From: Methylovulum sp.
GTDB taxonomy: Bacteria > Pseudomonadota > Gammaproteobacteria > Methylococcales > Methylomonadaceae
Direction: 5' to 3'
DNA: 64,000 bases
Assembly: GCA_028712695.1 (NCBI GenBank)
Contig: JAQTQZ010000002.1
Coordinates: 1 to 64,000, forward strand
This document shows, piece after piece, positions 23,389 through 40,909 of this stretch. Within the stretch, counting starts at the first letter, position 1. Every line of letters starts with the position of its first letter. Position numbers and translations under genes: made by a program. The notes under the pieces were generated by a model that did no database searches, was not told the DNA's origin, and worked only from the letters and a program-made list of their open reading frames with translations.

Positions 23389-23622
23389 ATGCGAAAAAAG
23401 AAGACAGCAACGTTATTTGAGGACTCGCTCTTTGAACTTGAGCAACTTGTTGCCCAACTTGAGCAAGGCGATATATCCTTGGAAGAATCATTAAAAGCCT
23501 TTGAACGTGGCGTCAACCTTACCCGAACCTGTCAAAAAGCTTTGCAAGAGGCGGAACAGAAAGTTCAGATCCTAATAGAAAAAAACGGCACTCAAACCCT
23601 GGAGCCCTTTACCGATGAGTAA
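23389..23622 (+). CDS. xseB: Exodeoxyribonuclease VII small subunit
   Basis: A 77-residue Xse[32 protein letters not shown] and a coiled-coil-like tail. It partners XseA to degrade single-stranded DNA. It overlaps ispA by 8 bp in the standard xseB-ispA-dxs order. A TATAAT at 23338-23343, 45 bp upstream, is a possible -10 but has no good -35. Confidence 0.9.
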
Positions 23623-24511
23623 TGCGTTAAAAGAATACCTTAGTTTTTGTCAAAACCATGTGGAAAGGGCGCTAGAGCAGCGGTTGCCTGGTGAACAGAT
23701 ACTTCCGCAAAAACTGCATAGCGCGATGCGCTATTGTGTGCTGGATGGTGGCAAGCGTATGCGGCCCATGTTGACTTATTGCACCGGAAAAACGCTGGGT
23801 ATTGCACCGGAAGCGCTTGATGGGCCAGCGTGTGCCGTTGAAATGATCCATGTCTATTCGTTGATCCATGATGATCTGCCAGCAATGGACGATGACGATT
23901 TAAGGCGAGGAAAACCGACCTGCCATGTTGCCTTCGATGAAGCCACCGCTATTTTGACCGGTGATGCGTTGCAAGCATTGGCATTTGAAATATTGGCCCA
24001 CGATCCCAGTATTATAGTCAACGCAGAAAATCGGCTGAAAATGATTGCCGCCCTTGCTAAGGCAAGCGGTTCGCAAGGTATGGTGGGCGGACAGGCGATT
24101 GACCTGGAATCGGTAGGGACAAAACTGAATTTGCCTGAGTTGGAAAACATGCACATCCATAAAACCGGTGCCTTGATCCGCGCTAGCGTCACTATGGCGA
24201 CGTTGGCAAAGGCCGATGTAGATCCTGCGCTTGCGATAAAATTGGACCATTATGCTAAATGTATTGGCTTATCCTTTCAGGTTAAAGACGATATTTTGGA
24301 CGAAGAAAGCGATACCGCCACGCTAGGTAAAACTCAAGGTAAAGATAAGGATAATGACAAGCCCACTTACCCTGCTCTTTTGGGTTTGGCTGGAGCCAAA
24401 CAAAAGGCTCAGGAATTGCATGAAATGGCGCTGGAAAATTTAAGTGTTTTTGGCAAAGAGGCTGATCTTTTGCGTGACTTGTCGCTTTATATCATTCAAC
24501 GAGACCATTAA
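23615..24511 (+). CDS. ispA: Farnesyl diphosphate synthase
   Basis: IspA condenses DMAPP with two IPP to FPP, the precursor of squalene and hopanoids. The 298-residue protein has the first aspartate motif [14 protein letters not shown], with the KPTCH motif, and the second [17 protein letters not shown] motif is near residue 45. It overlaps xseB. FPP feeds the squalene synthase encoded at 30457-31632. Confidence 0.95.
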
Positions 24512-24594: not shown

Positions 24595-26457
24595 ATGAAC
24601 ACATCACATCATTACCCGCTGCTCGACACCATCGCCAGTCCGGCGGACGTGCGCAGCCTTCCCCGTGAGCTCCTCAAGCCGCTGGCGAAGGAGCTGCGGG
24701 AGTTTTTGACCCAGACCGTGAGCGTGTCGGGCGGGCACTTTTCCGCCGGGCTCGGCACCGTCGAGCTGACCGTCGCGCTGCACTACGTCTTCGACACCCC
24801 GTCCGACCAGCTGGTCTGGGACGTCGGCCACCAGGCCTACCCGCACAAGATCCTCACCGGCCGCAAGGGGCGCATGGCGACCATCCGCAGCCGTGACGGC
24901 ATCTGCGCCTTCCCCAGCCGCCAAGAGAGCGAATACGACGCCTTCGGGGTCGGCCACTCCAGCACCTCCATCAGCGCCGCGCTGGGCATGGCGATAGCGG
25001 CGGGCCTGAAGGGCGAGGACAAACAAATGGTCGCCATCATCGGCGACGGCAGCATCACCGGCGGCATGGCCTACGAGGCCATGAACCACGCCGGCGCCAT
25101 CGACGCCAACCTGCTCGTCATCCTCAACGACAACGACATGTCCATCTCCCCGAACGTCGGCGCGATGAACAACTACCTGTCCAAGATCCTGTCCAGCCGC
25201 TTCTACTCCTCCGTGCGCGAAGAAAGCAAAAAAGTGCTCGGCAAGATGCCCACCGTCTGGGAACTGGCGCGGCGCACCGAAGAGCATGTCAAAGGCATGA
25301 TCGTGCCCGGCACCCTGTTTGAAGAACTCGGCTTTAACTACATCGGCCCGATCGACGGCCACGACCTGGATGTCCTGGTCTCGACCCTGGAAAACCTCAA
25401 ACACATCAGCGGCCCGCGCTTCCTGCATATCGTCACCAAAAAAGGCAAAGGCTACGGCCCCGCCGAAAAAGACCCCTTGGCCTACCACGGCGTGCCCGCG
25501 TTCGACCCCGCCCAGGACAGCCTGCCCAAATCCGCCCCGTCGCCGCACCCCACCTACACCGAAGTGTTCGGCACCTGGCTGTGCGACATGGCCGCACAGG
25601 ACGACCGCCTGCTCGGCATCACCCCCGCCATGCGCGAAGGCTCCGGGCTGGTCAACTTCTCACAACGCTTCCCCGACCGCTACTTCGACGTCGCCATCGC
25701 CGAACAGCATGCCGTCACCCTGGCGGCCGGGCAGGCCTGCCAAGGCGCCAAACCCGTCGTCGCCATCTACTCCACCTTCCTGCAGCGCGGCTACGACCAG
25801 CTCATCCACGACGTCGCCCTGCAAAACCTCGACGTCCTGTTCGCCCTCGACCGTGCCGGCCTGGTCGGCCCCGACGGCCCCACCCATGCCGGCAGCTTCG
25901 ATTACAGCTTCCTGCGCTGCATCCCCAACCTGGTCATCATGGCCCCCGCCGATGAAAACGAATGCCGGCAAATGCTGACCACCGGCTTTCTCCATCCCGG
26001 CCCCGCGGCCGTGCGCTACCCGCGCGGCAAAGGCCCCGGCGTCGCCGTGCAGCCGGGCCTGGACAGCCTGCCCCTCGGCAAGGGCGAAGTGCGCCACCAC
26101 GGCAGCCGCATCGCCATCCTCGCTTGGGGCAGCATGGTCGCCCCCGCGCTGGCCGTCGGCAAACAGCTGGGCGCCACCGTCGTCAACATGCGCTTTGTCA
26201 AGCCCCTGGACGGCGGGCTCGTCCTGGAGCTTGCCAAAAGCCATGACAGCTTCGTCACCGTCGAGGAGAACGTCATCGCCGGCGGGGCGGGCAGCGCGGT
26301 CAACGAGTTCCTGCAGGCGCAGAAGGTCCTGATGCCGGTGCTGAACCTCGGCCTGCCCGACTGCTTCGTCGAGCAGGGCACTCGCGAGGAGCTGCTGGCG
26401 CTGTGCGGCCTGGATGTGCCGGGGATTTTGGCTTCGGTTGAATCATTCTGTGCCTGA
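24595..26457 (+). CDS. dxs: 1-deoxy-D-xylulose-5-phosphate synthase, copy 1
   Basis: DXS makes DXP from pyruvate and glyceraldehyde 3-phosphate, using thiamine diphosphate; it starts the MEP pathway. The 620-residue protein has [18 protein letters not shown] (TPP-binding), [12 protein letters not shown] and [16 protein letters not shown]. It lies in the canonical xseB-ispA-dxs order, 83 bp after ispA. Only about the first 11 residues differ from copy 2 at 37910-39772; the remaining DNA is almost identical. GC is near two-thirds, far above the neighbours, which is evidence of transfer or a strong codon bias. Confidence 0.95.
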
Positions 26458-26459
26458 TT
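24628..26459 (+). repeat. 1832-bp near-identical repeat, dxs copy 1
   Basis: This stretch matches 37943-39774 with five single-base differences that I can find (26268, 26382, 26385, 26391 and 26392). All are synonymous and lie near the 3' end. The match starts at codon 12 of dxs and stops two bases after the stop codon. Confidence 0.93.
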
Positions 26460-26536
26460 ATAGGGTTGCGGGTTACCTGACGGCGGATGCCTGAAGGCGT
26501 TATTAAAAGTTAAATTCTAACCAGATAGAACTCACT

Positions 26537-27052
26537 ATGCACAGATTAAGAAGTAAAATCCGCGATATTCCAGATTTCCCTAAATCCGGTATTGTCTTCA
26601 AGGACATTACGCCATTAGTGAAAGACCCTGCCACTTTGAGATTGTCTGTGCACCAACTGTTACAGCCTTTTTTGGGGCGCGATATAACGGCTGTGGCAGG
26701 TATGGAGGCACGGGGGTTTATTTTTGGTTCTTTAGTCGCATGGGAACTGGGCTTGCCTTTTATACCGCTCAGAAAACCGGGCAAACTACCTTATGATGTA
26801 CAAAGCGTATCTTATGATTTGGAATACGGATCAGCGGAGTTGGAGGCGCATATTGATGCGTTTGAGGCTAATGACCGGGTTTTATTGATTGATGATTTGT
26901 TGGCTACGGGTGGTACAGCAAAAGCAAGCTGTGAGTTGGTGGAAAAGCTCGGGGCGACAGTGGAAGCCTGCGCGTTTGTTGTGGAGCTGGATTTCCTTGA
27001 AGGTAGAAAAAAGCTCAGTGGCTACGAAGTGCATTCATTGCTGCACTTTTAA
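26537..27052 (+). CDS. apt: Adenine phosphoribosyltransferase
   Basis: Apt salvages adenine to AMP with PRPP. The 171-residue protein has the PRPP motif VLLIDDLLATGGTAKA (about 115-130). The start IRDIPDFPKSGIVFKDITP is typical. It follows dxs copy 1 by 79 bp but is ordinary in base composition. Confidence 0.95.
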   Translation: MHRLRSKIRDIPDFPKSGIVFKDITPLVKDPATLRLSVHQLLQPFLGRDITAVAGMEARGFIFGSLVAWELGLPFIPLRKPGKLPYDVQSVSYDLEYGSAELEAHIDAFEANDRVLLIDDLLATGGTAKASCELVEKLGATVEACAFVVELDFLEGRKKLSGYEVHSLLHF

Positions 27053-27072
27053 GGCGACGGGGCAATAAAAAA

Positions 27073-27118
27073 GACACAAGACATAAATTAGGGAGCGGCA
27101 ATTGTCTTGTGTCGAAAA
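27073..27118. terminator. Hairpin between convergent apt and mlaA
   Basis: Arms GACACAAGACA (27073-27083) and TGTCTTGTGTC (27103-27113) are perfect 11-bp complements with a 19-base loop, then GAAAATTTTT. It sits 20 bp after apt and could end transcription from both sides. The long loop makes it less canonical. Confidence 0.5.
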
Positions 27119-27207
27119 TTTTTACAGGTAGGTGGGCTTTTTGTTTAGGGCTACACGGTTATTTTTTTTAATTATGAAAGACTTGGCTTTGAATAAAGCC
27201 TAGTACC

Positions 27208-28173
27208 TTAACGGCGATAAAATGGCTGTTTTTTTCGGCTCTTAAGGTGTAATTTATCAGCCTTATTGCCCGCATCTTCAAGTGTTTTTGCGGTTTCATC
27301 AAACGACTTTGTTACGCCAAGAAAAGACTGTCCGGCCTCTTCGAATGTTTGGTTGCTGCTGGAGTCATTTTTTATGGGTTGGCTGGGAGTAGTAGTGGAG
27401 CCTGCACTTTCGGCGTCAAATTCGTCCAGTTCATCATACAAGTCTGTGTTTGCTGCCGATTTTCCGTCCGTAGCCAAGCCGCCCCGCCATTGTAGAAAAG
27501 ATTCCCGGGTAAACACATAGGGGTCTAGCGCGGCTTCATCAATGAATTTCAATGCACCCTCGGCATTTGCTCGGGCGTTTAGCAGTGACAGCAGTTGCAC
27601 GGGTGCGCCTACATAGCTTGAGGGATTTGCGGCCGTATCAAAAATGGCGCCTGGAATACCCCGCACGGTTGTGGGGCCTAGCAAAGGTATGATCAAGTAA
27701 GGGCCGCGTGGAATTCCCCATACGGCCAGTGTTTGGTCGAAATCTTCCTCGTTTTGTTCTAAGCCTGCGTCTTTAGCAACGTCTACTAAGCCTAATAGGC
27801 CCAATGATGAATTGATTGCAAAGCGTCCGGTGTCTTTTGCGCTTTGCTTAAGCTTGGCTTGCAAAACATCATTTATGATTACGTTTATGTTCTTTAGATT
27901 ATTATAAAAATTAAATACGCTAGTTTGTACAAATTGCGGCGTTATTGCCTTATAGGCGCTGGCGATAGGCGCGGCGACGTAATCGTCGACGCTATCATTA
28001 AAAACAAATGTTTTCCGGTTTATGCGCTCATAAGGGTCGGCCTTGCTTAGTGTTGGTTGAGTCCCGGTATTTGTGGTTGCGCAGCCGCTGTTCAGAATAA
28101 ACAGGCCAGCTAGCATGAGGAAAAAGGCACGCTGGCGTTTATTGGGGCGCATGATATTACGAAGGGTGTTCAT
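27208..28173 (-). CDS. mlaA: MlaA/VacJ family lipoprotein
   Basis: MlaA is an outer-membrane lipoprotein that removes misplaced phospholipids and hands them to MlaC. The protein has 321 residues with a lipoprotein signal ending LFILNSGC and the family core YERINRKTFVFNDSVDD, PQFVQTSVFNFYNNLKNIN and GPYLIIPLLGPTTVRG. It is next to an MlaC-like gene and hpnH, so it may act on hopanoids or lipids bound with them. The C-terminal tail (about 225-321) is acidic, serine-rich and probably unstructured. Confidence 0.88.
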   Translation of the reverse strand: MNTLRNIMRPNKRQRAFFLMLAGLFILNSGCATTNTGTQPTLSKADPYERINRKTFVFNDSVDDYVAAPIASAYKAITPQFVQTSVFNFYNNLKNINVIINDVLQAKLKQSAKDTGRFAINSSLGLLGLVDVAKDAGLEQNEEDFDQTLAVWGIPRGPYLIIPLLGPTTVRGIPGAIFDTAANPSSYVGAPVQLLSLLNARANAEGALKFIDEAALDPYVFTRESFLQWRGGLATDGKSAANTDLYDELDEFDAESAGSTTTPSQPIKNDSSSNQTFEEAGQSFLGVTKSFDETAKTLEDAGNKADKLHLKSRKKQPFYRR

Positions 28174-28184
28174 TGCTATAAAAC

Positions 28185-28802
28185 CTATAGTTTCGAATAG
28201 TTATCAATTTTTTCGGTAATTTTGGTTATTAAAGCATCAAAGCCTTCGCGTTGTAAAACGGCTGTGTATTCCGAACGTTTTAACGCCAGGTCGCTGACAC
28301 CATTGGCAATGATATTGATGATGCGCCAACTATTGCCTTGTTCTTTTAGCATGTAGTCGAATTTCACGTCTTTTTCGTCAGGGATGCTTAGGTGCGTATG
28401 GATAACGACGCCGCCCCGAGTCGTCTCTTCTTCTGAATCAAAGTCAAATGATTCGCCGTCATAGTCTTTAAAGTTGTGCGCATAAGAAGCGACGCTTAGC
28501 TTGGTGAATACATCAACCAGCTGTTTTTGCTGAGACTCAGACAATTTTTCCCATTCTTTACCAACCACAATACGGGCAATTTTTGGCAAGTCATGGCTTT
28601 GGGTGACGGCATCATGCAGTTTGCTGTAGCGGCCGGAATAGCCAGCGCTTTTGCCCGTTTTCATGACATCTATCAGTTCATTTTGAAAGCTTTCGACAAC
28701 TTGCTTGGCAGTTGCCGTGCTTTGGTTTTCTGCGCTTGCTGTGGCTGTCGAAAACAAAAAGGCTATAAGCACGGTAGCCAGCTTAATGTGTTTTAAACCC
28801 AT
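28185..28802 (-). CDS. MlaC/HpnM-like periplasmic lipid-transport protein
   Basis: A 205-residue MlaC (Ttg2D) family protein with a cleavable signal ending TATASAEN. The family segment YSKLHDAVTQSHDLPKIARI and the C-terminal NSWRIINIIANGVSDLALKR are visible. In hopanoid clusters this family is called HpnM. Its position between mlaA and hpnH, with hopanoid synthesis genes just beyond, fits that name; phospholipid transport remains possible. Confidence 0.8.
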   Translation of the reverse strand: MGLKHIKLATVLIAFLFSTATASAENQSTATAKQVVESFQNELIDVMKTGKSAGYSGRYSKLHDAVTQSHDLPKIARIVVGKEWEKLSESQQKQLVDVFTKLSVASYAHNFKDYDGESFDFDSEEETTRGGVVIHTHLSIPDEKDVKFDYMLKEQGNSWRIINIIANGVSDLALKRSEYTAVLQREGFDALITKITEKIDNYSKL

Positions 28803-28889
28803 AAATTAGAAACCTCGTAAAAATAACAGCACAAATAGATTAAGTAGCGTTTTAAGCGATAACCGCGAATTCCCTCCGAAAGAAAATTG

Positions 28890-29993
28890 CTAATCGGCCA
28901 TTTCTACTTTAATAGGGATTCCCGCAAGCTTTGAATTAGATGTTGCTGGCAGTGCTTTTGGCTCAGGCACCATATTACCTTCGGTTTTCGGGCCTTTGAT
29001 GGCTGTCAGTAAGGCTTTCAGCGGATGTTTTAGCATATCCTCAACGGCGGTTGCTTCGTAGCCACAATGTGCCATGCAGCTTGCGCATTTAGGGTTGCTG
29101 CTGTTGCCGTATTTTTCCCACGGGGTGGTGCCTAAAAGCTCTTGAAAAGTGGCGGCATTGCCTTCGTCTGCCAGTAGGTAGCACGGTTTTTGCCAGCCGA
29201 AAACGTTGCGCGTCGGGTTGCCCCAAGGAGTGCATTCGTAACTTTGGTTGCCCGCTAAAAAATCAAGGTAGAGGGAAGAGTGGTTTAATTTCCAGTTACG
29301 GTTTTTGCCGATTTTAAAAATCCCTCGGAACAAATCCTTAACGTCTTTGCCTTTGATAAAAACATTCTGTTGGGGGGCGCGTTCGTAACTGAATCCAGGT
29401 GCAATAGTGATGCCCTCAACACCCAGTTCCATTGCGTAATCTAGGAATTCGGCAACTTCTTGGGCATTTTCACCTTGGAACAGAGTGCAGTTGATAGTTA
29501 CCCTAAAGCCTTTGCCTAGTGCCAGCTTAATGGCTTCTACTGCCCGGTCAAACACCCCCTCTTGACAAACAGAAGTGTCGTGCCTTTCTTGCATGCCGTC
29601 CAAATGGATGGAAAAGGTCAAATAAGGGGAGGGCTTGTAGTCATCGATTCTTTTTTTCAATAGCAGCGCATTAGTGCACAAATAAACGTATTTTTTTCGG
29701 GCAATAATGCCTTCGATAATTTGTGGCATCTCTTTATGGATCAGTGGCTCGCCACCTGGAATGGAGACCATCGGCGCACCGCATTCGTCAACGGCCTGCA
29801 TACATTCTTCATAAGAGAGGCGTTGGTCAAGGATATCGTCAGGGTAGTCGATTTTGCCGCAACCTGCACAGGCGAGGTTGCAACGGAACAGTGGTTCTAG
29901 CATGAGCACTAAAGGATATTTTTTAACGCCTCTTAGTTTTTGTTTGATCAGATAACTGCCGACTGTTAATTGTTGGCGTAAAGGAACTCCCAT
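28890..29993 (-). CDS. hpnH: Adenosyl-hopene synthase HpnH (radical SAM)
   Basis: HpnH joins a 5'-deoxyadenosyl group to diploptene to give adenosylhopene, the first step to C35 hopanoids. The radical-SAM cluster motif CNLACAGC (Cx3Cx2C) is near residue 44, after PLVLMLEPLFR. The C-terminal domain has cysteines in PKCASCMAHCGYE. ATG at 29993 is chosen because AGAGGG lies 7 bases upstream; a TTG at 30023 is an alternative. HpnG, which acts next, is encoded at 33696-34415. Confidence 0.94.
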   Translation of the reverse strand: MGVPLRQQLTVGSYLIKQKLRGVKKYPLVLMLEPLFRCNLACAGCGKIDYPDDILDQRLSYEECMQAVDECGAPMVSIPGGEPLIHKEMPQIIEGIIARKKYVYLCTNALLLKKRIDDYKPSPYLTFSIHLDGMQERHDTSVCQEGVFDRAVEAIKLALGKGFRVTINCTLFQGENAQEVAEFLDYAMELGVEGITIAPGFSYERAPQQNVFIKGKDVKDLFRGIFKIGKNRNWKLNHSSLYLDFLAGNQSYECTPWGNPTRNVFGWQKPCYLLADEGNAATFQELLGTTPWEKYGNSSNPKCASCMAHCGYEATAVEDMLKHPLKALLTAIKGPKTEGNMVPEPKALPATSNSKLAGIPIKVEMAD

Positions 29994-30456
29994 CAGTAAA
30001 CCCTCTAAAATTGTAATAAGCAATGGCCGTCATGCGCTGGACGGTCTGATATAGAAACACTTAGCAATGAGTGTGTAGTAATAAAGCAACAGACGGCCGG
30101 CGGTTAATAAAATGTAACCTGATGTGATCCGGGTTGTCGGCAGCTGGATGTTTCTGTCTATCCTTTTATATAATACAATCGCTTAGCTAATTGTTGACTA
30201 GAATACTACCTTTTAGCGGTTGACTCCAGTTTTTGCATCAAATTGTCTGTAAGCAAGTAATTTTAAATGTATTCGCATAAATGCAACATTTCTCTTTAAA
30301 TTACTGTTTTTATTCTCAAAAAACGGGTTCGATGGCCTTTAAAATAAGCGCATTGGTAATAAAACAACATTGCTTTGCAAAATACCAACAAACAGTCTAT
30401 GATTATTGTCAATTGACGTAATTTACTATAGAACTCATAGCATTATTAAAAATATC
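29994..30456. other. Divergent hpnH/sqs intergenic region
   Basis: About 460 AT-rich bases separate the two hopanoid transcription units. No coding frame is convincing. Both units must have promoters here. TTGTCA (30406-30411) and TATAGA (30427-30432) with 15 bp between form a possible promoter for the squalene synthase. A TATTAT run on the minus strand near 30170-30180 is a possible -10 for hpnH. Confidence 0.45.
30406..30432 (+). promoter_or_regulatory. Possible sqs promoter
   Basis: TTGTCA and TATAGA are separated by 15 bp, slightly short. A start point near 30440 would leave about 17 bases before the ATG at 30457, which lacks a clear ribosome binding site. It is a prediction by eye only. 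Confidence 0.3.
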
Positions 30457-31632
30457 ATGAGCGTTCCCCAACTATCTCTGGATGATCCAAGACTGCTTAA
30501 TCAGTTGTCTGATAAAGATTTTCAAGCCGCCTTACTTGAAGGTGTGTCCAGAACGTTTGCCCTGACTATCCCACAGTTACCGGAAAAGCTTTACGATGCG
30601 GTCGCCAATGCGTATTTATTGTGCCGTATAGTTGACACGATCGAGGACGAGGTTTCGTTGACGACTAGGCAAAAACAGCATTTTTGCAGTGAATTTATTG
30701 AGGTGGTAAGAACAGGCGACAATGCCGAGCCTTTTGCCGTTGAGCTTGCGCCTTTGCTTTCCGATCAAACCATACCGGCTGAGCACACGTTAATCCACGT
30801 CTTGCCGCGCGTCATTCAAATTACCCATAGCCTTGAACCCGGACAAACTGAAGCTTTAGCCGCATGTGTCGAAACGATGGCGGCAGGCATGCCGATCTTT
30901 CAGGCTCAGAATTTGCATAACGGCTTGGCCACGCTCGCCGATTTAGATAAATACTGTTATTACGTTGCGGGTTGTGTCGGTGAAATGCTGGCAAAGCTTT
31001 TTTGCCACTATTCGCCGGAAATTGCACAACATCGTGAACAGTTGTTGGCGTTGTCCGTGTCGTTCGGGCAAGGTTTGCAAATGACTAATATTCTGAAAGA
31101 TATTTGGGATGATGCGGAACGGGGCGTGTGCTGGTTGCCGCAGGACATTTTCACTGAAACTGGGTTCGACCTTAAGGAATTGTCTCCGGAAACCAATGAT
31201 GAGCATTTCAGGAAAGGCCTGGAGCATTTGATTGGTATTGCGCACGGCCATTTAAAGGATGCTTTGGCATATACCCAGTTGCTGCCGGCGCATGAAACAG
31301 GTGTCCGTAACTTTTGCCTATGGGCGTTAGGTATGGCTGTTTTAACACTAAGAAAAATTAAACAGAATTTGAATTTTACTGATTCAAGTCAGGTCAAAAT
31401 CAGCCGTAATAGTGTTAAATCGACGATATTAGCCACTCGCTTAGCAGGGCGTAGCAACGCCTTGTTATCTCTGCTTTTTAATTTAGTCAGCCGTGGTTTG
31501 GCAACACCAGGCTGGTCTTATCCAATTTCATCCCACGCTCCCTTTCCAGACCCTGCTTTACCTCTTGAAACCGCTTCTATCCTTTCTGTGACAGAGGGTA
31601 TGCAGTCGTCAAAAGCCAATTCAGATCTTTAA
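30457..31632 (+). CDS. sqs: Squalene synthase (squalene/phytoene synthase family)
   Basis: Joins two FPP to squalene, the substrate of the adjacent cyclase. With ATG 30457 it has 391 residues. The substrate-binding acidic motifs are DTIEDEV (about 60) and NILKDIWDDAERG, and the FALTIPQLPEKLYDAVANAY start is typical. It is a single squalene synthase and replaces the three-enzyme HpnC-HpnD-HpnE route, which is not seen here. shc follows by 9 bp. The open frame extends upstream to a TTG at 30406 that is not supported. Confidence 0.88.
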   Translation: MSVPQLSLDDPRLLNQLSDKDFQAALLEGVSRTFALTIPQLPEKLYDAVANAYLLCRIVDTIEDEVSLTTRQKQHFCSEFIEVVRTGDNAEPFAVELAPLLSDQTIPAEHTLIHVLPRVIQITHSLEPGQTEALAACVETMAAGMPIFQAQNLHNGLATLADLDKYCYYVAGCVGEMLAKLFCHYSPEIAQHREQLLALSVSFGQGLQMTNILKDIWDDAERGVCWLPQDIFTETGFDLKELSPETNDEHFRKGLEHLIGIAHGHLKDALAYTQLLPAHETGVRNFCLWALGMAVLTLRKIKQNLNFTDSSQVKISRNSVKSTILATRLAGRSNALLSLLFNLVSRGLATPGWSYPISSHAPFPDPALPLETASILSVTEGMQSSKANSDL

Positions 31633-31641
31633 GGAAACGCC

Positions 31642-33699
31642 ATGTTTACCGATGCCACTAACCGTATAAATACTTGTCATGCCCCGAGTTCATCGGTGGC
31701 TATCCATTCTAATGCGTATGACCTTAATAAAGCCATTGAAAGGGCGCAGAATAAATTGCTGAGCCTGCAGGATAAAGAAGGTTTTTGGGTGTTTGAGCTG
31801 GAAGCTGACTGTACGATCCCTTCAGAATATATTTTGATGATGCACTATTTGGGGGAGATTGATGTTCCGTTACAGGCTAAAATTGCCAATTATTTAAGGT
31901 CGCGCCAGTCTGAAGACGGCAGTTATCCGTTGTTTACCGGTGGTGTTGGTGATATTAGCTGTAGTGTGAAAGTCTATTACGCCTTGAAAATGGCGGGAGA
32001 TGCTGTTGATGCGCCGCATATGGCACGTCTCAAAAATTATATTCTCAGTCAAGGTGGTGCAGCTAAAGCAAACGTGTTTACCCGGATTGCACTGGCAATG
32101 TTTGAACAGATACCTTGGCGCGGTGTACCGTATATTCCTGTTGAAATCATGTTGTTGCCGCGTTGGTTCCCATTCCATTTGGATAAGGTGTCCTATTGGT
32201 CAAGAACCGTTATGGTGCCGTTGTTCATTCTTTGCACATTAAAAGCGACGGCTAAAAATCCTAATAAGGTCAATATATTGGAATTGTTTATCACCCATCC
32301 GGATGCGGAGTGGCATTATTTTCCGGAACGGACGTTACTGAACAAGGTTTTCTTAGGATTGGACCAATTGGGCCGGACAATTGAGCCATTCATTCCCAAA
32401 GCGATACGCAGCCATGCTATTAAAAAAGCCAAGGACTGGTTTGTTGAGCGGCTTAATGGCGAAGACGGTTTGGGCGGAATTGCCCCTGCTATGATGGCCG
32501 CCTATGAAGCCATGTTGCTGATGGGAATGCCGAAAGATCATGAACATGTGGTAATGGCACGCAAAGCCATAGATAAGCTGTTGGTCATTAATGAGCATGA
32601 TGCCTATTGCCAGCCTTGTTTGTCACCAGTCTGGGATACCGGCTTGGCTGCACTTGCCTTACAAGAAGCTGATAAAGAAGCCAATGTGGATAGTTTGGCC
32701 CGTGCCTACGATTGGCTAAAATCAAAACAATTATCCGATGAACCTGGCGACTGGCGTATTTCTAAGCCGGACTTGGCAGGTGGTGGCTGGGCGTTCCAAT
32801 TTGCCAATCCGCATTATCCTGATGTGGATGACACCGCAGTGGTCGCTTTTGCGATGGCGGATTCTGATTTTGGTGGCCTAGACGAGTCCATCCATCGGGC
32901 AACCCGCTGGATAGTCGGGATGCAATCGAAAAACGGTGGCTATGGTGCATTTGATGTCGACAACACTTGTTATTATCTAAATGAAATTCCGTTTGCCGAC
33001 CATGGTGCTTTATTGGATCCACCAACCGCCGATGTCAGCGCACGCTGCGCAATGTTGATGGCACGGGTCGCTAAAGACCATAGTGAATATTTACCGGCAT
33101 TGGAACGTACTATAGATTACTTGCGTAGCGAGCAGGAAGCCGATGGCTCTTGGTTTGGACGCTGGGGCACCAATTATATTTATGGCACTTGGTCGGTATT
33201 GCTAGGTTTGGAGCAAACTCAGTTGCCTAAAACTGATCCTATTTATAGCAAAGCGGCACAATGGTTGAAAAGTGTGCAGCGTGCGGATGGCGGTTGGGGG
33301 GAAGACAATTACAGCTACCATGATTCCGATTGCCGTGGGCAATATCGTTTTAGTACGGCATTCCAGACCGCTTGGGCAGTTTTAGGGCTAATGGCGGCAG
33401 GTGAGGCGCATAGCGCTGAAGTCAAGGCAGGCATTGACTTCATCCTTCGCCACCAGCAAGCAGATGGTGTTTGGAATGACAAATGCTTTACTGCACCGGG
33501 TTTTCCTAAAGTGTTTTATCTCAAATATCACGGTTATGATAAGTTTTTCCCGCTGTGGGCGCTTGCCAGATACCGTAACGAGCTTAACCGCCGCACTAGT
33601 TCCCGACTGGCTGATGCCATACACACCATCCATGGCGATCGCCACGCTAGTTCCCGACTGGCTAATGGCATACACACCATCCATGGCGATATAAAGTGA
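31642..33699 (+). CDS. shc: Squalene-hopene cyclase with repeated C-terminal tail
   Basis: Shc cyclises squalene to hopene and hopanol at the inner membrane. The 685-residue protein has the catalytic DxDD motif in YPDVDDTAVVAF and multiple QW repeats such as QEADGSWFGRWG and QRADGGWGEDNY. The core ends near LARYRNELN. About 35 extra residues follow, built from a 17-residue unit (SSRLADAIHTIHGD) that is present twice. The end overlaps the GTG start of hpnG by 4 bp (GTGA), so coupling is likely. Confidence 0.95.
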   Translation: MFTDATNRINTCHAPSSSVAIHSNAYDLNKAIERAQNKLLSLQDKEGFWVFELEADCTIPSEYILMMHYLGEIDVPLQAKIANYLRSRQSEDGSYPLFTGGVGDISCSVKVYYALKMAGDAVDAPHMARLKNYILSQGGAAKANVFTRIALAMFEQIPWRGVPYIPVEIMLLPRWFPFHLDKVSYWSRTVMVPLFILCTLKATAKNPNKVNILELFITHPDAEWHYFPERTLLNKVFLGLDQLGRTIEPFIPKAIRSHAIKKAKDWFVERLNGEDGLGGIAPAMMAAYEAMLLMGMPKDHEHVVMARKAIDKLLVINEHDAYCQPCLSPVWDTGLAALALQEADKEANVDSLARAYDWLKSKQLSDEPGDWRISKPDLAGGGWAFQFANPHYPDVDDTAVVAFAMADSDFGGLDESIHRATRWIVGMQSKNGGYGAFDVDNTCYYLNEIPFADHGALLDPPTADVSARCAMLMARVAKDHSEYLPALERTIDYLRSEQEADGSWFGRWGTNYIYGTWSVLLGLEQTQLPKTDPIYSKAAQWLKSVQRADGGWGEDNYSYHDSDCRGQYRFSTAFQTAWAVLGLMAAGEAHSAEVKAGIDFILRHQQADGVWNDKCFTAPGFPKVFYLKYHGYDKFFPLWALARYRNELNRRTSSRLADAIHTIHGDRHASSRLANGIHTIHGDIK
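33596..33690 (+). repeat. 51-bp tandem duplication at the shc 3' end
   Basis: Two copies of a 44-base stretch (33596-33639 and 33647-33690), 51 bp apart, differ at two positions. The duplication is in frame and adds SSRLADAIHTIHGD-type units to the cyclase. A GGCGATCGCC palindrome spans the junction. I found no other copy in the window. Confidence 0.85.
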
Positions 33700-34415
33700 T
33701 CACCGGTATTGTTGTTGCGTTGCCTGAAGAACTGGCTACCCTGACATCAAAACGGATTGACAAAGGGCATTGTGTTTTCATCGCTGACAAATTGTTAGTC
33801 GCTTATTCTGGGGCGGGTTCTAAAAACGCGACGGTTGCCGCTGAGTTATTGATTAGCAAAGGCGCCACCCAGCTTATTAGCTGGGGTTGTGCGGCCGCGC
33901 TCGACACTGCTTTAATGCCGGGGGACTTGGCGTTGGTGGATTGTCTGATTGATGTTAATGATGATGAGTTGTTGGTTGACCATAACTGGCACGAGTACGC
34001 TAAAAATCTGTTGGCTTCTGACGTTGCAGTGCGCACGGGTAGCTTGACAGAAAGCGTGAATATTGTTTTTGCCGGCAAAGAAAAGCTGCACTTGCAACTC
34101 ATAACTAAAGCTATTGCGTTGGATATGGAGAGTGTTTCCATAGCTAGGGTTGCACAAAAAAAATCCCTGCCGTTTCTTGCTATTAGGGCAATTGTCGACC
34201 CTGCCGATATGGATTTGCCAAGAGCGGTTGGTTATGCCGCCAACGCGGAAGGTGATATTGTCCTGAGCCGGTTGTTGTTGTTTCTGGTCTTGCATCCTGT
34301 TGAACTGCCGCGTTTGATTCGCTTGGGTTTTTATTTCAATGCCGCTAAAGCCACGTTAAAGCGTGTGGCGAGGCGATTAGATGACTTGGCCGATTTTCCA
34401 AATAAGCTCAAATGA
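33696..34415 (+). CDS. hpnG: Hopanoid-associated phosphorylase HpnG
   Basis: A 239-residue nucleoside-phosphorylase-fold protein. HpnG removes adenine from adenosylhopane to give ribosylhopane. The active-site region is LDMESVSIARVA and AIRAIVDPADMDLP. The GTG start at 33696 overlaps the shc stop. It joins shc, hpnH and hpnO in one C35 hopanoid pathway. Confidence 0.86.
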   Translation: MITGIVVALPEELATLTSKRIDKGHCVFIADKLLVAYSGAGSKNATVAAELLISKGATQLISWGCAAALDTALMPGDLALVDCLIDVNDDELLVDHNWHEYAKNLLASDVAVRTGSLTESVNIVFAGKEKLHLQLITKAIALDMESVSIARVAQKKSLPFLAIRAIVDPADMDLPRAVGYAANAEGDIVLSRLLLFLVLHPVELPRLIRLGFYFNAAKATLKRVARRLDDLADFPNKLK

Positions 34416-34483
34416 GAGCGCCCTTGAGTTTCCGGTTAAACGACCTGAAACTTGCATCCTGAACTTTGCATTTTGTATCTATC

Positions 34484-35875
34484 ATGACTTTTAGTATTGC
34501 CGAACTCTTTGCCCAGCACAGCACGGATAAATTTGATTTACACGAACAGTTCCTAAACAACCAAATGGTTAGGGTGCTAAAAACCATTGGCTATGACCGC
34601 CATTACAAAAAAGCGGTTGGCCAATATCTGTATGATCAAGAAGGCACCGAGTATCTTGATTTGCTTAGCGGTTTCGGTGTATTTGCGATTGGCCGTAACC
34701 ACCCTACAGTGATTAGTGCGTTAAAGGAAACCCTGACATTGGAGCTGCCCAACTTGGTGCAGATGGATGTGTCAGTGCTCAGCGGCTTGTTGGCCCAAGA
34801 GCTGTTAAAAACCACGCCTGATAACCTTACAAAAATGTTTTTCTGCAATTCCGGTACGGAAGCGGTGGAAGCTGCCATTAAGTTTGCCCGTTACACGACT
34901 AAGCGCGAAAAAATAGTCTTTTGCGAACACGGCTATCATGGTCTGACCATGGGGTCGTTATCCTTAAACGGCGAGAACATTTTCCGTGAAGGGTTTGGGC
35001 CCTTGCTGCCCGGTTGCCGTGCCGTGCCGTTCAACGATTTGGTGGCACTGGAAGCTGCGTTAAGCAACAGCGATGTGGCTGCATTTATTGTTGAACCGAT
35101 ACAAGGCAAAGGCGTAAACCTTCCTGAGGACAACTACCTGTCCGAAGTGGAACGTTTGTGCAAAAAATACGGCACACTGTTTGTTGCCGATGAAGTCCAA
35201 ACTGGTTTAGGGCGCACAGGTAAGTTTTGGGCGATAGACCATTGGGGCGTGCAGCCGGACATGATTTGCATGGCAAAAGCCTTGTCAGGCGGTTTTGTAC
35301 CGGTTGGCGCCGTCGCGATGACGCAAAAAATCATGGACACCGTTTATAACCGTATGGACAGGGCGGTCGTACATGGTTCGACCTTCTCTAAAAACAATAT
35401 GGCAATGGCGGCAGGGCTTGCGACATTGCATGTCATGGCGGAAGAAAAACTGGTCGAAAACAGCGAGAAGGTAGGTACTGACCTTATCAATACCCTGAAT
35501 GCCATGACAGGGAAATATGAATTCCTAAAAGAAGCACGCGGTAAAGGCATGATGATAGCGATTGAATTCAAGGCGCCTAAAAGCCTCACGTTAAAAGCGG
35601 CTTGGGCGATGTTGGAGGCCGCCAATAAGGGTCTTTTCTGCCAGATGGTCACCATACCGTTGTTTAAAGAACATCATATTTTGACGCAGGTTGCGGGGCA
35701 TGGCATGAACGTCGTCAAGTTATTGCCACCGCTAAACTTAACACAAAAAGACCGCGACCATATTGTCACTGCATTTGATAAAACGATTGCCGACACACAT
35801 CAGATTCCCGGTTCCATATGGGATTTAGGTAAAAATCTTGCCAGCCATGCGCTAAAAGGCAAAAAAGGAAGCTAA
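34484..35875 (+). CDS. hpnO: Class III aminotransferase, probable HpnO
   Basis: PLP enzyme of the ornithine-aminotransferase type, 463 residues with ATG 34484. The lysine is in CMAKALSGGFVPVGAV; FVADEVQTGLGRTG holds the PLP-contact aspartate. HpnO converts ribosylhopane to aminobacteriohopanetriol. The position directly after hpnG supports that role and argues against an arginine or GABA pathway. The copC-like gene starts 1 bp after its stop codon. Confidence 0.82.
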   Translation: MTFSIAELFAQHSTDKFDLHEQFLNNQMVRVLKTIGYDRHYKKAVGQYLYDQEGTEYLDLLSGFGVFAIGRNHPTVISALKETLTLELPNLVQMDVSVLSGLLAQELLKTTPDNLTKMFFCNSGTEAVEAAIKFARYTTKREKIVFCEHGYHGLTMGSLSLNGENIFREGFGPLLPGCRAVPFNDLVALEAALSNSDVAAFIVEPIQGKGVNLPEDNYLSEVERLCKKYGTLFVADEVQTGLGRTGKFWAIDHWGVQPDMICMAKALSGGFVPVGAVAMTQKIMDTVYNRMDRAVVHGSTFSKNNMAMAAGLATLHVMAEEKLVENSEKVGTDLINTLNAMTGKYEFLKEARGKGMMIAIEFKAPKSLTLKAAWAMLEAANKGLFCQMVTIPLFKEHHILTQVAGHGMNVVKLLPPLNLTQKDRDHIVTAFDKTIADTHQIPGSIWDLGKNLASHALKGKKGS

Positions 35876-35876
35876 C

Positions 35877-36230
35877 ATGAAAAATCTCTATTTATTAAGT
35901 TTGCTATTATTGGCGTTGTATCAACCCATCGCCTGCGCCCATGCAGTTGTCACGGACTATTCGTTAAAAATCACGCCGATTCATGAAAACCAAGCAGATA
36001 AAGTCAGTTTGGATTTTAATTCTAAAATAGAACTAGGTTTGTCCCAGGTTTTTTTGGTCAGCAAAGGCGATAAACAAACTTTGTTAACTATTGGCAAAGG
36101 TGATAAGCAGGGGCGAGTCAATATTGAAATACCCGCATTGGTGTCTGGTGATTACGCGTTAAAGCTCAAGGTTTTTGCCGCCGATGGGCATTTGACCGAA
36201 GACGTCATTCATTTTACCGTCGCTCCTTAG
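35877..36230 (+). CDS. CopC-family periplasmic copper-binding protein
   Basis: A 117-residue protein with a signal peptide ending IACA; the mature chain would start with histidine (HAVVTDYS). CopC proteins bind Cu(II) with the N-terminal histidine and a DGH motif, seen here in FAADGHLTEDVIHFTV. The protein is a single beta-sandwich domain with the expected length. It is followed 9 bp later by a CopD-type gene and belongs to the hopanoid operon by position. Confidence 0.82.
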   Translation: MKNLYLLSLLLLALYQPIACAHAVVTDYSLKITPIHENQADKVSLDFNSKIELGLSQVFLVSKGDKQTLLTIGKGDKQGRVNIEIPALVSGDYALKLKVFAADGHLTEDVIHFTVAP

Positions 36231-36239
36231 GGTTCAATC

Positions 36240-37907
36240 ATGGCCGGTATTGCTGATTTCCTTGATTCACTGATTGGTGGTTTTGCGCTGGTCTGTTTTG
36301 CATTTGCTGTCGGCAGCCTGTTTTGGGGACTGTTTGTATTGCGTCCTTGGTTGCGCGACGCAGGTTACCCTGCTGTTTTACTGGAAAGAACAGTTAAATT
36401 GTTGTATGCGGGTGGTTTTGCATTGGCCGGTGCGCAAGTGTTTAAAATTATTCTGAAAATTTGGCTGATGAGTGCAGTGCTGGACAAATGGCCATTTCCC
36501 GAATTTGCCGAAACAACCCAATTCATTGGCGGGATTGTCAGGGCTTTATTCACCTTGGTATTAGCTGGCTACTGTTATTGCGTGCTGAGTAAAAATCCGT
36601 ATTCCAAGGACTATTGGCAAACCGCCGGATTGGTCGCCGTGCCGATGATTATTTCGGGGGCGTGGCTAGTACACGCCGCTGGACGTTTTGATAACCCCGT
36701 TATTTTGATGGGCTTAACAGTTATCCATCAGTTGGCGGCGGCGGCGTGGATTGGTGGCGTATTTCATCTGGTCAACATCTGGTTGATGCGCAGCAAAAAA
36801 CAGATTTCTGCTGATTTATGGCCACTGTTGCTGAAACGGTTTTCACTATTCGGCATGGCCTCGGTGGGTGTTATTTTGCTGTCGGGTGTGCCGATGGCGT
36901 TGCAATATATTGATAGCTGGAACGGTTTTATAGGTACCGGCTACGGTAATTTGCTCATGGTGAAAATTATTTTGTTGGCATTGGCTCTCAGCTTGGCTTG
37001 GCTTAACAAGTCGGCAGTTGCCGATTATTTTGTTACACGTGACGGTCATGCGTTGAATTATCGTGTGCCTTACTATATTGAAGCAGAAGCCTTTGTTTTA
37101 ATTACCTTACTGTTTACGGCTGCGAGCCTTGCATCGCAACCCCCTTCGATTGATATTCCCAACCTGACTGCCAGTTGGCAAGAGGTAGTGGACATGTTCA
37201 CACCGCGTGTCCCAAGGACGGCCTCGCCAACGCATCAGGCACTGATTGCCGGTGAAGCCGGCCGGGTTGCAATTATTGGTCAGGTTCCTTCAGAGGCGGC
37301 GACTGCCTGGTCGGACTACAATCACAATATTGCCGGTATTTTTCTGACTACGATGAGCTTTTTTGCAATGCTCTCTTATGTCAAGCGCTTGCCATCAGCT
37401 TTTTCCGGATTTGAGCGCTATCTAGGTTATCTGACCCGTTACTGGCCGATAGGTTTTGTCGGTTTGGGCATTTTCCTGTTTTTCCGTAGCGACGCTGAAA
37501 CTTGGCCGCTAGGCCCGATTGGCTTTTGGGAAAGCACGTTTAATAACGGGGAGGTCTTGCAGCACCGTATTGCCACCTTGTTAGTATTTGTGCTGGGTGT
37601 GCTGGAGTTGGTTGCCCGATTGCCCCGTAACCAGAATAGCCGGTTACCTTATTTTTTTCCGATATTGGCTGCTTTTGGCGGGTTGATGTTATTGACGCAT
37701 TCGCATGTCGGATTTCAAGCTAAAAGCGCGTTCCTGATTCAGATTGGTCATACTTTAATGGGGGTGTTCTCGCTTGTGCTCGCTTGTGGTCGGTGGTTGG
37801 AATTGAAACTCGACAGGCCAGGTAAGGATATTGCCGGATTTATTTCTGTTGCCGCCTTGTTCCAAATTGGACTTATTTTGATGTTCTATCGTGAACCGCT
37901 TTATTAA
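36240..37907 (+). CDS. CopD-family membrane protein, extended
   Basis: A 555-residue integral membrane protein. The first part (about 10-295) has eight hydrophobic segments and the CopD segment [20 protein letters not shown] second part (about 345-555) adds about six segments with histidines, including [22 protein letters not shown] and IGHTLMGVF. It may move copper across the inner membrane with the CopC-like protein; transport is inferred. It ends 2 bp before dxs copy 2. Confidence 0.75.
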
Positions 37908-37909
37908 TT

Positions 37910-39772
37910 ATGAACACACCAGACGCCTACCCGATCCTTAACACCATCGCCAGTCCGGCGGACGTGCGCAGCCTTCCCCGTGAGCTCCTCAAGCCGCTGG
38001 CGAAGGAGCTGCGGGAGTTTTTGACCCAGACCGTGAGCGTGTCGGGCGGGCACTTTTCCGCCGGGCTCGGCACCGTCGAGCTGACCGTCGCGCTGCACTA
38101 CGTCTTCGACACCCCGTCCGACCAGCTGGTCTGGGACGTCGGCCACCAGGCCTACCCGCACAAGATCCTCACCGGCCGCAAGGGGCGCATGGCGACCATC
38201 CGCAGCCGTGACGGCATCTGCGCCTTCCCCAGCCGCCAAGAGAGCGAATACGACGCCTTCGGGGTCGGCCACTCCAGCACCTCCATCAGCGCCGCGCTGG
38301 GCATGGCGATAGCGGCGGGCCTGAAGGGCGAGGACAAACAAATGGTCGCCATCATCGGCGACGGCAGCATCACCGGCGGCATGGCCTACGAGGCCATGAA
38401 CCACGCCGGCGCCATCGACGCCAACCTGCTCGTCATCCTCAACGACAACGACATGTCCATCTCCCCGAACGTCGGCGCGATGAACAACTACCTGTCCAAG
38501 ATCCTGTCCAGCCGCTTCTACTCCTCCGTGCGCGAAGAAAGCAAAAAAGTGCTCGGCAAGATGCCCACCGTCTGGGAACTGGCGCGGCGCACCGAAGAGC
38601 ATGTCAAAGGCATGATCGTGCCCGGCACCCTGTTTGAAGAACTCGGCTTTAACTACATCGGCCCGATCGACGGCCACGACCTGGATGTCCTGGTCTCGAC
38701 CCTGGAAAACCTCAAACACATCAGCGGCCCGCGCTTCCTGCATATCGTCACCAAAAAAGGCAAAGGCTACGGCCCCGCCGAAAAAGACCCCTTGGCCTAC
38801 CACGGCGTGCCCGCGTTCGACCCCGCCCAGGACAGCCTGCCCAAATCCGCCCCGTCGCCGCACCCCACCTACACCGAAGTGTTCGGCACCTGGCTGTGCG
38901 ACATGGCCGCACAGGACGACCGCCTGCTCGGCATCACCCCCGCCATGCGCGAAGGCTCCGGGCTGGTCAACTTCTCACAACGCTTCCCCGACCGCTACTT
39001 CGACGTCGCCATCGCCGAACAGCATGCCGTCACCCTGGCGGCCGGGCAGGCCTGCCAAGGCGCCAAACCCGTCGTCGCCATCTACTCCACCTTCCTGCAG
39101 CGCGGCTACGACCAGCTCATCCACGACGTCGCCCTGCAAAACCTCGACGTCCTGTTCGCCCTCGACCGTGCCGGCCTGGTCGGCCCCGACGGCCCCACCC
39201 ATGCCGGCAGCTTCGATTACAGCTTCCTGCGCTGCATCCCCAACCTGGTCATCATGGCCCCCGCCGATGAAAACGAATGCCGGCAAATGCTGACCACCGG
39301 CTTTCTCCATCCCGGCCCCGCGGCCGTGCGCTACCCGCGCGGCAAAGGCCCCGGCGTCGCCGTGCAGCCGGGCCTGGACAGCCTGCCCCTCGGCAAGGGC
39401 GAAGTGCGCCACCACGGCAGCCGCATCGCCATCCTCGCTTGGGGCAGCATGGTCGCCCCCGCGCTGGCCGTCGGCAAACAGCTGGGCGCCACCGTCGTCA
39501 ACATGCGCTTTGTCAAGCCCCTGGACGGCGGGCTCGTCCTGGAGCTTGCCAAAAGCCATGACAGCTTCGTCACCGTCGAGGAAAACGTCATCGCCGGCGG
39601 GGCGGGCAGCGCGGTCAACGAGTTCCTGCAGGCGCAGAAGGTCCTGATGCCGGTGCTGAACCTCGGCCTGCCCGACTGCTTCGTCGAGCAGGGCACGCGG
39701 GAGGAATTGCTGGCGCTGTGCGGCCTGGATGTGCCGGGGATTTTGGCTTCGGTTGAATCATTCTGTGCCTGA
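37910..39772 (+). CDS. dxs: 1-deoxy-D-xylulose-5-phosphate synthase, copy 2
   Basis: A second full DXS of 620 residues, identical in protein sequence to copy 1 after about residue 11 ([16 protein letters not shown] here, [16 protein letters not shown] in copy 1). It starts 2 bp after the CopD-type stop without a clear ribosome binding site, so translation probably depends on coupling. Its GC is much higher than that of the preceding hopanoid genes. Its place at the end of the hopanoid and copper operon suggests extra DXP for hopanoid synthesis. Confidence 0.95.
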
Positions 39773-39774
39773 TT
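37943..39774 (+). repeat. 1832-bp near-identical repeat, dxs copy 2
   Basis: This matches 24628-26459 in direct orientation with five synonymous differences near the 3' end. The sequence outside is unrelated on both sides. Confidence 0.93.
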
Positions 39775-39817
39775 TAGTCTCTGTGTAACGCATAAAAAAT
39801 TATTGTTGAACATTGAT

Positions 39818-40909
39818 ATGACCACCTTACCTTTTCAAGATTACGCCTTACTCGATGATGACGAATGCGATGCCCGCATTATTGCCGCAAAAGCTAAGCT
39901 TGGCAGACGTTGTGTGATACTCGGCCATCATTACCAACGTGATGAAGTCTTCAAACATGCCGATTTTTCTGGCGATTCATTAAAGCTATCCAGAGATGCC
40001 GCGCACTCGGATGCCGAATATATCGTATTTTGCGGCGTGCATTTCATGGCGGAAGTCGCCGACATACTATCCCGCCCGGAGCAGATTGCCATTTTGCCGG
40101 ATTTAGCGGCGGGCTGTTCGATGGCGGATATGGCGAATCTGGTAAAAGTACAGCAATGCTGGGAGGAGCTGGCGCAAGTCATTGATGTGGAGAATGATGT
40201 AACGCCAGTCACCTATATCAATTCAGCCGCCGACCTGAAAGCATTTTGCGGCAAGCATGACGGCATCGTTTGCACCTCATCAAACGCCCGGAAAATACTG
40301 GAATGGAGTTTCGCCAAACGTCCGAAAGTGCTGTTTTTCCCCGACCAGCATCTGGGCCGCAATACCGGCTATCGCATGGGCATTCCGTTGGAAGAAATGG
40401 TCATCTGGGATTTCAACAAACCCATGGGCGGCCTGACACAAGAGCAGATTAACAACGCCAAGATGATACTTTGGAATGGCTATTGTTCCGTCCATCAGGC
40501 TTTTAAGCCGGAACAGATAGACAATTTTCTGGCGCGTTACCCTGAAACCAAAGTCATTGCGCACCCTGAAGCGTGTTTTGAAGTCTGCCAGAAAGCCGAT
40601 TATGTCGGTTCCACGGAATATATCCTGAAAACAGTCCGCGAAGCCGAGGCCAACACCCGTTGGCTGGTGGCTACCGAACTGAATTTGGTCAACCGCTTGC
40701 ATGACGAATGCAAGGCGCAGGGTAAAAACATCCATTTTATGTCGCCTACACTCTGCATGTGCTCAACCATGTTTAGGACTGATCCGCAACATTTGGCCTG
40801 GATAATGGAAAATCTGGCCGCAGGCAATGTGATTAACCGGATTTCTGTGTCTGCGGATGAAGCTAAATTGGCTAAAAGAGCGTTGGACAACATGCTTGCA
40901 GTTTCTTAA
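39818..40909 (+). CDS. nadA: Quinolinate synthase NadA
   Basis: NadA condenses iminoaspartate with DHAP to quinolinate in NAD synthesis, using a [4Fe-4S] cluster. The 363-residue protein has its conserved cysteines in AAGCSMAD, KHDGIVCTSSNA, HPEACFEVC and SPTLCMCSTMFR. ATG at 39818 is preferred to the TTG at 39803. It starts 45 bp after dxs copy 2 and has ordinary base composition. Confidence 0.94.
   Translation: MTTLPFQDYALLDDDECDARIIAAKAKLGRRCVILGHHYQRDEVFKHADFSGDSLKLSRDAAHSDAEYIVFCGVHFMAEVADILSRPEQIAILPDLAAGCSMADMANLVKVQQCWEELAQVIDVENDVTPVTYINSAADLKAFCGKHDGIVCTSSNARKILEWSFAKRPKVLFFPDQHLGRNTGYRMGIPLEEMVIWDFNKPMGGLTQEQINNAKMILWNGYCSVHQAFKPEQIDNFLARYPETKVIAHPEACFEVCQKADYVGSTEYILKTVREAEANTRWLVATELNLVNRLHDECKAQGKNIHFMSPTLCMCSTMFRTDPQHLAWIMENLAAGNVINRISVSADEAKLAKRALDNMLAVS

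Follow-up and report, generated by a model that had tools for sequence, protein, structure and literature searches.

A stretch of 64,000 nucleotides from Methylovulum sp. (contig JAQTQZ010000002.1), referred to here as the window, carries two dxs genes, coding for the first enzyme of the methylerythritol phosphate (MEP) pathway. Both genes are nearly identical and far richer in GC than the DNA around them. What keeps the two copies so similar, and why are they GC-rich in a GC-moderate setting? An earlier note, made from the sequence alone, had proposed recent conversion or copying of an acquired foreign allele. Comparison with related genomes shows that GC richness of dxs depends on copy number. 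The best explanation, to which we assign a probability of roughly 0.78, is GC-biased gene conversion between dxs paralogues.

Two near-identical dxs copies in the window

Both genes are identified as dxs by Pfam domains PF13292, PF02779 and PF02780, have identical orientation and start 13.3 kb apart (Table 1). Pairwise alignment of the two tracts is gapless over 1832 bp and contains five mismatches, located in codons 558, 596, 597, 599 and 600 of 620. All five are synonymous. Alignment thus reproduces the near-identical pair read from the sequence before, including its limits: identity extends from codon 12 to two bases after the stop codon, and the first 11 codons of the two genes are unlike. 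Near-identity over such length is far beyond chance.

The GC-rich character of the copies was likewise confirmed. Their GC content is 0.66 each, compared with 0.45-0.48 in 1.5-kb flanks. GC at third codon positions (GC3) is 0.884 in both copies and 0.512 in neighbouring open reading frames (ORFs), while G+C at four-fold sites (GC4) is 0.97 in dxs and 0.59 in neighbours. Pfam searches also agree with the surroundings described earlier, placing ispA before copy 1 and copC-copD before copy 2. In a search of the whole 3.79-Mb genome, these two genes were the only dxs matches, both on one 169-kb contig.

Copies of dxs evolve in concert

Does the same pair occur in relatives? Family search comprised 237 genomes, of which 218 contained a dxs match. 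The main set of 74 genomes, consisting of 73 relatives with neighbourhoods and the window, includes 34 two-copy and 40 single-copy genomes; it was hand-picked from listed rows with coordinates, with complete assemblies favoured, and represents a non-random sample. The genome of the window is labelled G000, relatives are labelled G001 etc.

For each of the 32 complete pairs, distances to all sampled copies are smallest within the pair, and 31 of these pairs cluster by genome in a tree constructed from the gene interior. The earlier note had suggested looking for two divergent dxs genes in relatives; on the contrary, identity is 91.8% or higher in 30 of the 32 pairs (0.918-0.996), exceptions being G222 (0.886) and G113 (0.827). 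Homogenised pairs are also found at long range, namely 86 kb in G039 and 1.5-2.1 Mb in G178-G183 (genus g20), so chromosomal distance is no bar to conversion in g20.

Organization of the pair is preserved as well. Roughly the first dozen codons remain locus-specific in 32 of 32 pairs, as is expected if tracts must begin inside homology, while interior bins are on average 96-99% identical. The order dxs-prt-...-copD-dxs, where prt denotes a phosphoribosyltransferase gene, is kept in all 26 stretches spanning both loci (25 relatives and the window), and ispA is visible in 25 of them. Relatives assembled into a single contig, for example G001, display the same arrangement of the pair. Pair distances and the tree support recurrent gene conversion between dxs copies across the family. 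The proposed conversion therefore stands, but as a recurrent process and not as a single recent event.

GC content of dxs depends on copy number

GC3 of dxs exceeds that of neighbouring genes by 0.179 in two-copy genomes (n=34) and by 0.045 in single-copy genomes (n=40; p=5e-10). The corresponding logit shifts of GC4 are 1.48 (n=34) and 0.28 (n=40), respectively (p=1e-11). Three genomes were classified by inference: G003 as two-copy from one full copy and fragments, G006 likewise from two 3' fragments, and G203 as single-copy despite two matches counted, the second of which is unlisted (in G202, of the same genus, the second match is a 33% relative). When these three are omitted, the shifts are 1.36 and 0.29 (32 and 39 genomes, p=4e-11). 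Single-copy status of a draft genome can conceal a collapsed or missing second copy, a bias that works against the copy-number effect.

No measured neighbour reaches the GC4 of dxs in 30 of 34 two-copy genomes, as against 10 of 40 single-copy ones. Four-fold sites reach 82-99% GC in 27 of the 34, neighbouring genes being lower. Correlation between GC4 of dxs and its background is r=0.90 in single-copy and r=0.53 in two-copy genomes. Copy number underwent 12 parsimony changes on the DXS protein tree, and phylogenetic generalised least squares regression on this tree estimated the effect on GC3 at 0.136 +/- 0.019 (lambda 0.95, p=7.5e-10). Sixteen further genomes, obtained after the association had been noticed, are fully separated: GC4 shift is 1.27-2.65 in two-copy G119, G127, G138 and G107 (the last taken as two-copy from a full copy and a fragment) and -0.04 to 0.72 in 12 single-copy genomes. 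In this later set dxs was extracted by tblastn and 1.5-kb flanks served as background.

Within the gene, the rise sets in near the edge of the tract. In codons 2-14, mostly outside tracts, GC3 excess is -0.051 in two-copy and 0.004 in single-copy genomes (p=0.28), whereas in codons 61-590 it is 0.182 and 0.053, respectively (p=5e-9; 30 two-copy and up to 40 single-copy genomes, with G113, G222, G006 and G003 left out of the two-copy group). The difference between the two classes amounts to 0.07 in codons 15-30, 0.18 in codons 31-60 and 0.09-0.22 further in.

No effect of the locus itself was seen: GC is equally low in the 11 single-copy genomes that have dxs at the ispA locus and in the 29 that have it elsewhere, for the most part behind copD or an aminotransferase gene. 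In single-copy G002, G008, G016, G019, G200 and G203, dxs follows the hopanoid/copper run and is itself followed by the phosphoribosyltransferase gene (copD- or aat-dxs-prt). Recombination between the two direct dxs repeats would leave such a junction on the excised circle; alternatively, the order may be ancestral.

Proposed mechanism and polarised changes

We propose that the dxs genes go back to an old duplication and that repeated non-reciprocal homologous recombination within the chromosome has kept them near-identical. Whenever a heteroduplex contained an A/T-versus-G/C mismatch, the G/C version would be retained more often, and continued conversion would drive four-fold sites of the pair to high GC. 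A single copy would have no partner, and its composition would stay near background. The bias presumably arises when mismatches in conversion intermediates are repaired, and single-copy genomes have, we infer, lost a copy.

If conversion favours G/C, variants still present in one copy should lean towards A/T more than those already fixed. Changes from A/T to G/C (W>S) and from G/C to A/T (S>W) were thus compared between new between-copy changes and changes fixed in both copies. Pooled over 26 focal genomes, the W>S:S>W ratio is 44:130 for between-copy and 219:323 for fixed changes (odds ratio (OR) 0.50, p=3e-4).

It appears probable, although well short of certain, that GC-biased conversion in these bacteria is strong, is switched by gain or loss of the second copy, raises dxs and in some genera also tuf by up to about 3-4 logit units, and overrides translational selection. 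Its strength would differ by genus, perhaps owing to a repair factor that could be identified.

Other duplicated genes

Is the same true for other duplicated genes? The tuf gene was measured in 41 genomes, 28 of which have two copies and 10 a single copy; three ambiguous ones (G002, G210, G011) were set aside. Two copies were counted by inference in G004 (tuf at contig end) and in G014 and G018 (fragments on other contigs). Genomes with no tuf match at the threshold used (G005, G006, G007, G009, G012, G019, G046, G144) or with fragments only (G017) were left out. Relative to adjacent genes, GC4 of tuf is shifted by 0.51 where the gene is double and by -0.22 where it is single (p=0.002). Two genomes combine single dxs with double tuf: in G018, GC4 is 0.697 for dxs, 0.688 for its neighbours and 0.887 for tuf; in G014, the respective values are 0.725, 0.555 and 0.871. 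Within a 400-kb stretch of G001, tuf genes rank second and third in GC4 (0.863 and 0.858) among 295 genes, and the dxs pair, located elsewhere, exceeds all 295 (0.959).

Two-copy tuf without rise in GC was observed in genera g18 (G165, G166) and g26 (G205, G213). The two copies match completely or almost so in G165 and G205, and are 93% and 86% identical in G166 and G213, respectively. The effect on tuf depends on lineage, which points to a difference in conversion bias or repair between lineages; translational selection on tuf is perhaps involved. A third gene considered, coding for methane/ammonia monooxygenase A (AMO/pmoA), was matched in 18 of 18 genomes tested, once in 13 of them and with a lower-scoring second match in the other five; its presence throughout is consistent with Methylomonadaceae.

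Contrary observations and alternative explanations

Several observations weigh against GC-biased conversion. Classes overlap in the main set, GC4 shift ranging from 0.37 to 4.24 in two-copy and from -0.20 to 1.16 in single-copy genomes. Thirteen of the 40 single-copy genomes have a shift above the smallest one among two-copy genomes, and the largest single-copy shift (G031, 1.16, in an assembly 77% complete) is greater than that of many two-copy genomes. Identity of the pair does not predict GC shift (Spearman 0.22, p=0.23, 32 pairs). The G120 pair splits in the tree, as one copy groups with the pair of sister species G121, although its partner is still nearest by raw distance. G113 copies are only 82.7% identical, yet both are GC-rich; conversion perhaps ceased there recently. 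Pure GC bias should raise both G and C, but in G000 the third-position rise concerns C (0.26 to 0.62) and hardly G (0.25 to 0.27), and in G001 third-position G even falls from 0.27 to 0.23. Both bases rise more evenly in G042 and G045. The first rank in the 400-kb stretch of G001 belongs to a gene of 703 residues with a single match (GC4 0.876), which we took for polyphosphate kinase. For tuf, a negative shift occurs in 8 of the 28 genomes with two copies, including those with the identical or near-identical pairs of G205 and G165, and a positive one in G013 and G059, whose copies are only 81-83% identical. Finally, the polarised test gave OR 0.64 (p=0.47) in the eight genomes with strongest shift and was marginal when stratified (OR 0.65, p=0.085). 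In 20 re-chosen genomes, pooled OR was 0.74 (p=0.22) and stratified OR 0.58 (p=0.05); in this re-chosen test, G006, G113, G222 and pairs with nearest relative more than 0.13 away were left out.

Could recombination between copies raise GC by creating mutations? Such conversion-associated mutagenesis, in which A/T-to-G/C mutations would arise de novo, for instance through error-prone synthesis, likewise predicts copy-number dependence and a step near the tract edge, and it is compatible with the marginal stratified test. Differences between copies, however, lean towards A/T, since the 44 W>S and 130 S>W changes of the pooled test are matched by 35 and 114 in the re-chosen set, with parsimony at GC-rich sites exaggerating this lean. 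We regard mutagenesis as unlikely. Still less credit can be given to translational selection, according to which flux demand duplicates dxs and favours GC-ending optimal codons. It is true that methane-monooxygenase ORFs prefer C at two-fold pyrimidine codons, similarly to dxs of the lineages with strong shift. Nevertheless, four-fold GC of ribosomal, rpoBC/fusA and methane-monooxygenase ORFs is below that of dxs neighbours in 14 of 14 genomes, whereas strong-lineage dxs attains 0.95-0.99; GC4 of methane-monooxygenase ORFs is 0.17 in G000 and 0.12 in G001, where dxs has 0.97 and 0.96, respectively. Strong lineages rise also at codon positions 1+2 and in glycine, alanine, arginine and proline (GARP; 0.280 in single-copy, 0.304 in strong two-copy genomes), and codons 2-14 show no rise. 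In addition, the available part of a study of Methylomonas sp. DH-1 describes its two dxs homologues as the lowest-expressed MEP genes on methane, with 2.5- and 3.1-fold induction by methanol (PMC6373157). The earlier idea of selection for isoprenoid flux may account for retention of two copies, but it does not explain their GC content.

Acquisition of a foreign GC-rich allele, subsequently copy-pasted to the second site, was suggested by 66% GC within a 46% setting and by sharp borders. This explanation can hardly be upheld. The protein shares 83-87% identity with full-length DXS from 12 genus mates, among which are AT-rich single-copy genomes, and GC-rich copies vary by species and are placed among family members in the tree. 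Outside the family, the best among the matches listed reach 71% (protein) and 73% (DNA, a plasmid record), and the collections may omit records very near the window. As to an artefact, in which a single dxs gene would have been collapsed or joined into a chimera during assembly, a concern raised at the outset, draft assemblies of several relatives do break inside dxs, as identical repeats do. Both copies of the window are nonetheless contained in one 169-kb contig with distinct flanks and distinct 5' codons, and single-contig relatives are arranged alike, which leaves this possibility with next to no probability.

In the codon comparison, pmoA was identified by profile and the two adjoining ORFs were assigned otherwise: we take them to be pmoC and pmoB, based on gene order. 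Ribosomal genes were chosen by position and length, without profile. Methane-monooxygenase ORFs, presumably very highly expressed, show split preference, with C at two-fold pyrimidine, A at two-fold purine and T/A at four-fold codons. Codon optimisation of dxs was rejected, being contradicted by this T/A usage at four-fold sites.

Features of the window

Coordinates are summarised in Table 1. The gene run that precedes dxs2 has base composition equal to background. In the same assembly (G000), for which 2.44% contamination is stated, a second match to ribosomal protein L2 was found at C104:2111-2479, perhaps on a contaminant contig.

Table 1. Features of the two dxs loci, positions of the window
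Feature	Position	Strand	Basis and remarks
dxs1	24595..26457	+	620 codons; ORF list, Pfam; ispA upstream
dxs2	37910..39772	+	620 aa; ORF list, Pfam; 3' of copD, at end of hopanoid/copper gene run
Homogenised tract, copy 1	24628..26459	+	Codon 12 to 2 bases past stop; pairwise alignment
Homogenised tract, copy 2	37943..39774	+	Pairwise alignment with copy 1
Locus-specific 5' codons of dxs1, outside tract	24595..24627	+	Copy comparison
Locus-specific 5' codons of dxs2, outside tract	37910..37942	+	Copy comparison
ispA (polyprenyl synthetase), marker of locus 1	23615..24511	+	PF00348
Squalene/phytoene synthase, squalene-hopene cyclase, phosphorylase, class-III aminotransferase, copC, copD	30406..37907	+	Run ending in dxs2
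nadA, neighbour 3' of dxs2	39803..40909	+	PF02445

Significance and comparison with known systems

The dxs pair offers a natural experiment, in which the same gene of related bacteria, at either locus, can be followed in the presence and in the absence of a conversion partner, and in which neighbours within the genome and presumably highly expressed genes serve as controls. Its outcome suggests that a preference for G and C is inherent in bacterial gene conversion, and two-copy methanotrophs represent a system for direct experimental test of this bias. For a duplicated gene of a bacterium, locally elevated GC is not necessarily a sign of horizontal transfer, and base composition may mislead phylogenetic trees based on dxs or tuf.

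Concerted evolution with GC-rich paralogues under conversion is a feature of mammalian gene families such as Hsp70. These belong to meiotic eukaryotes, whereas the dxs pair resides in a bacterium. In bacteria, the available portions of two reports describe the role of biased gene conversion in GC content as unclear (PMC9339322) and its weight against selection as debated (PMC6867656). Among the openly licensed papers listed, no title or abstract start dealing with copy-number-dependent GC rise in bacterial paralogues was found, which is weak evidence of absence.

Enterobacterial tufA/tufB and rRNA genes evolve concertedly by gene conversion according to the accessible text of PMC8022953, and they resemble the dxs pair in that conversion between chromosomal copies maintains near-identity. 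The term "GC-biased" is absent from that text, whereas homogenisation of dxs comes with a large GC rise. GC-biased gene conversion in bacteria was proposed from intragenic recombination by Lassalle et al. 2015 (PMC4450053). In the part of this work available, as in ours, recombination lifts GC apart from codon selection and can oppose AU-ending optimal codons. However, GC is related there to intragenic recombination, and paralogues, duplicates and tuf are unmentioned in the main text as available. With dxs, by contrast, orthologous genes are compared in which conversion is switched on or off by copy number.

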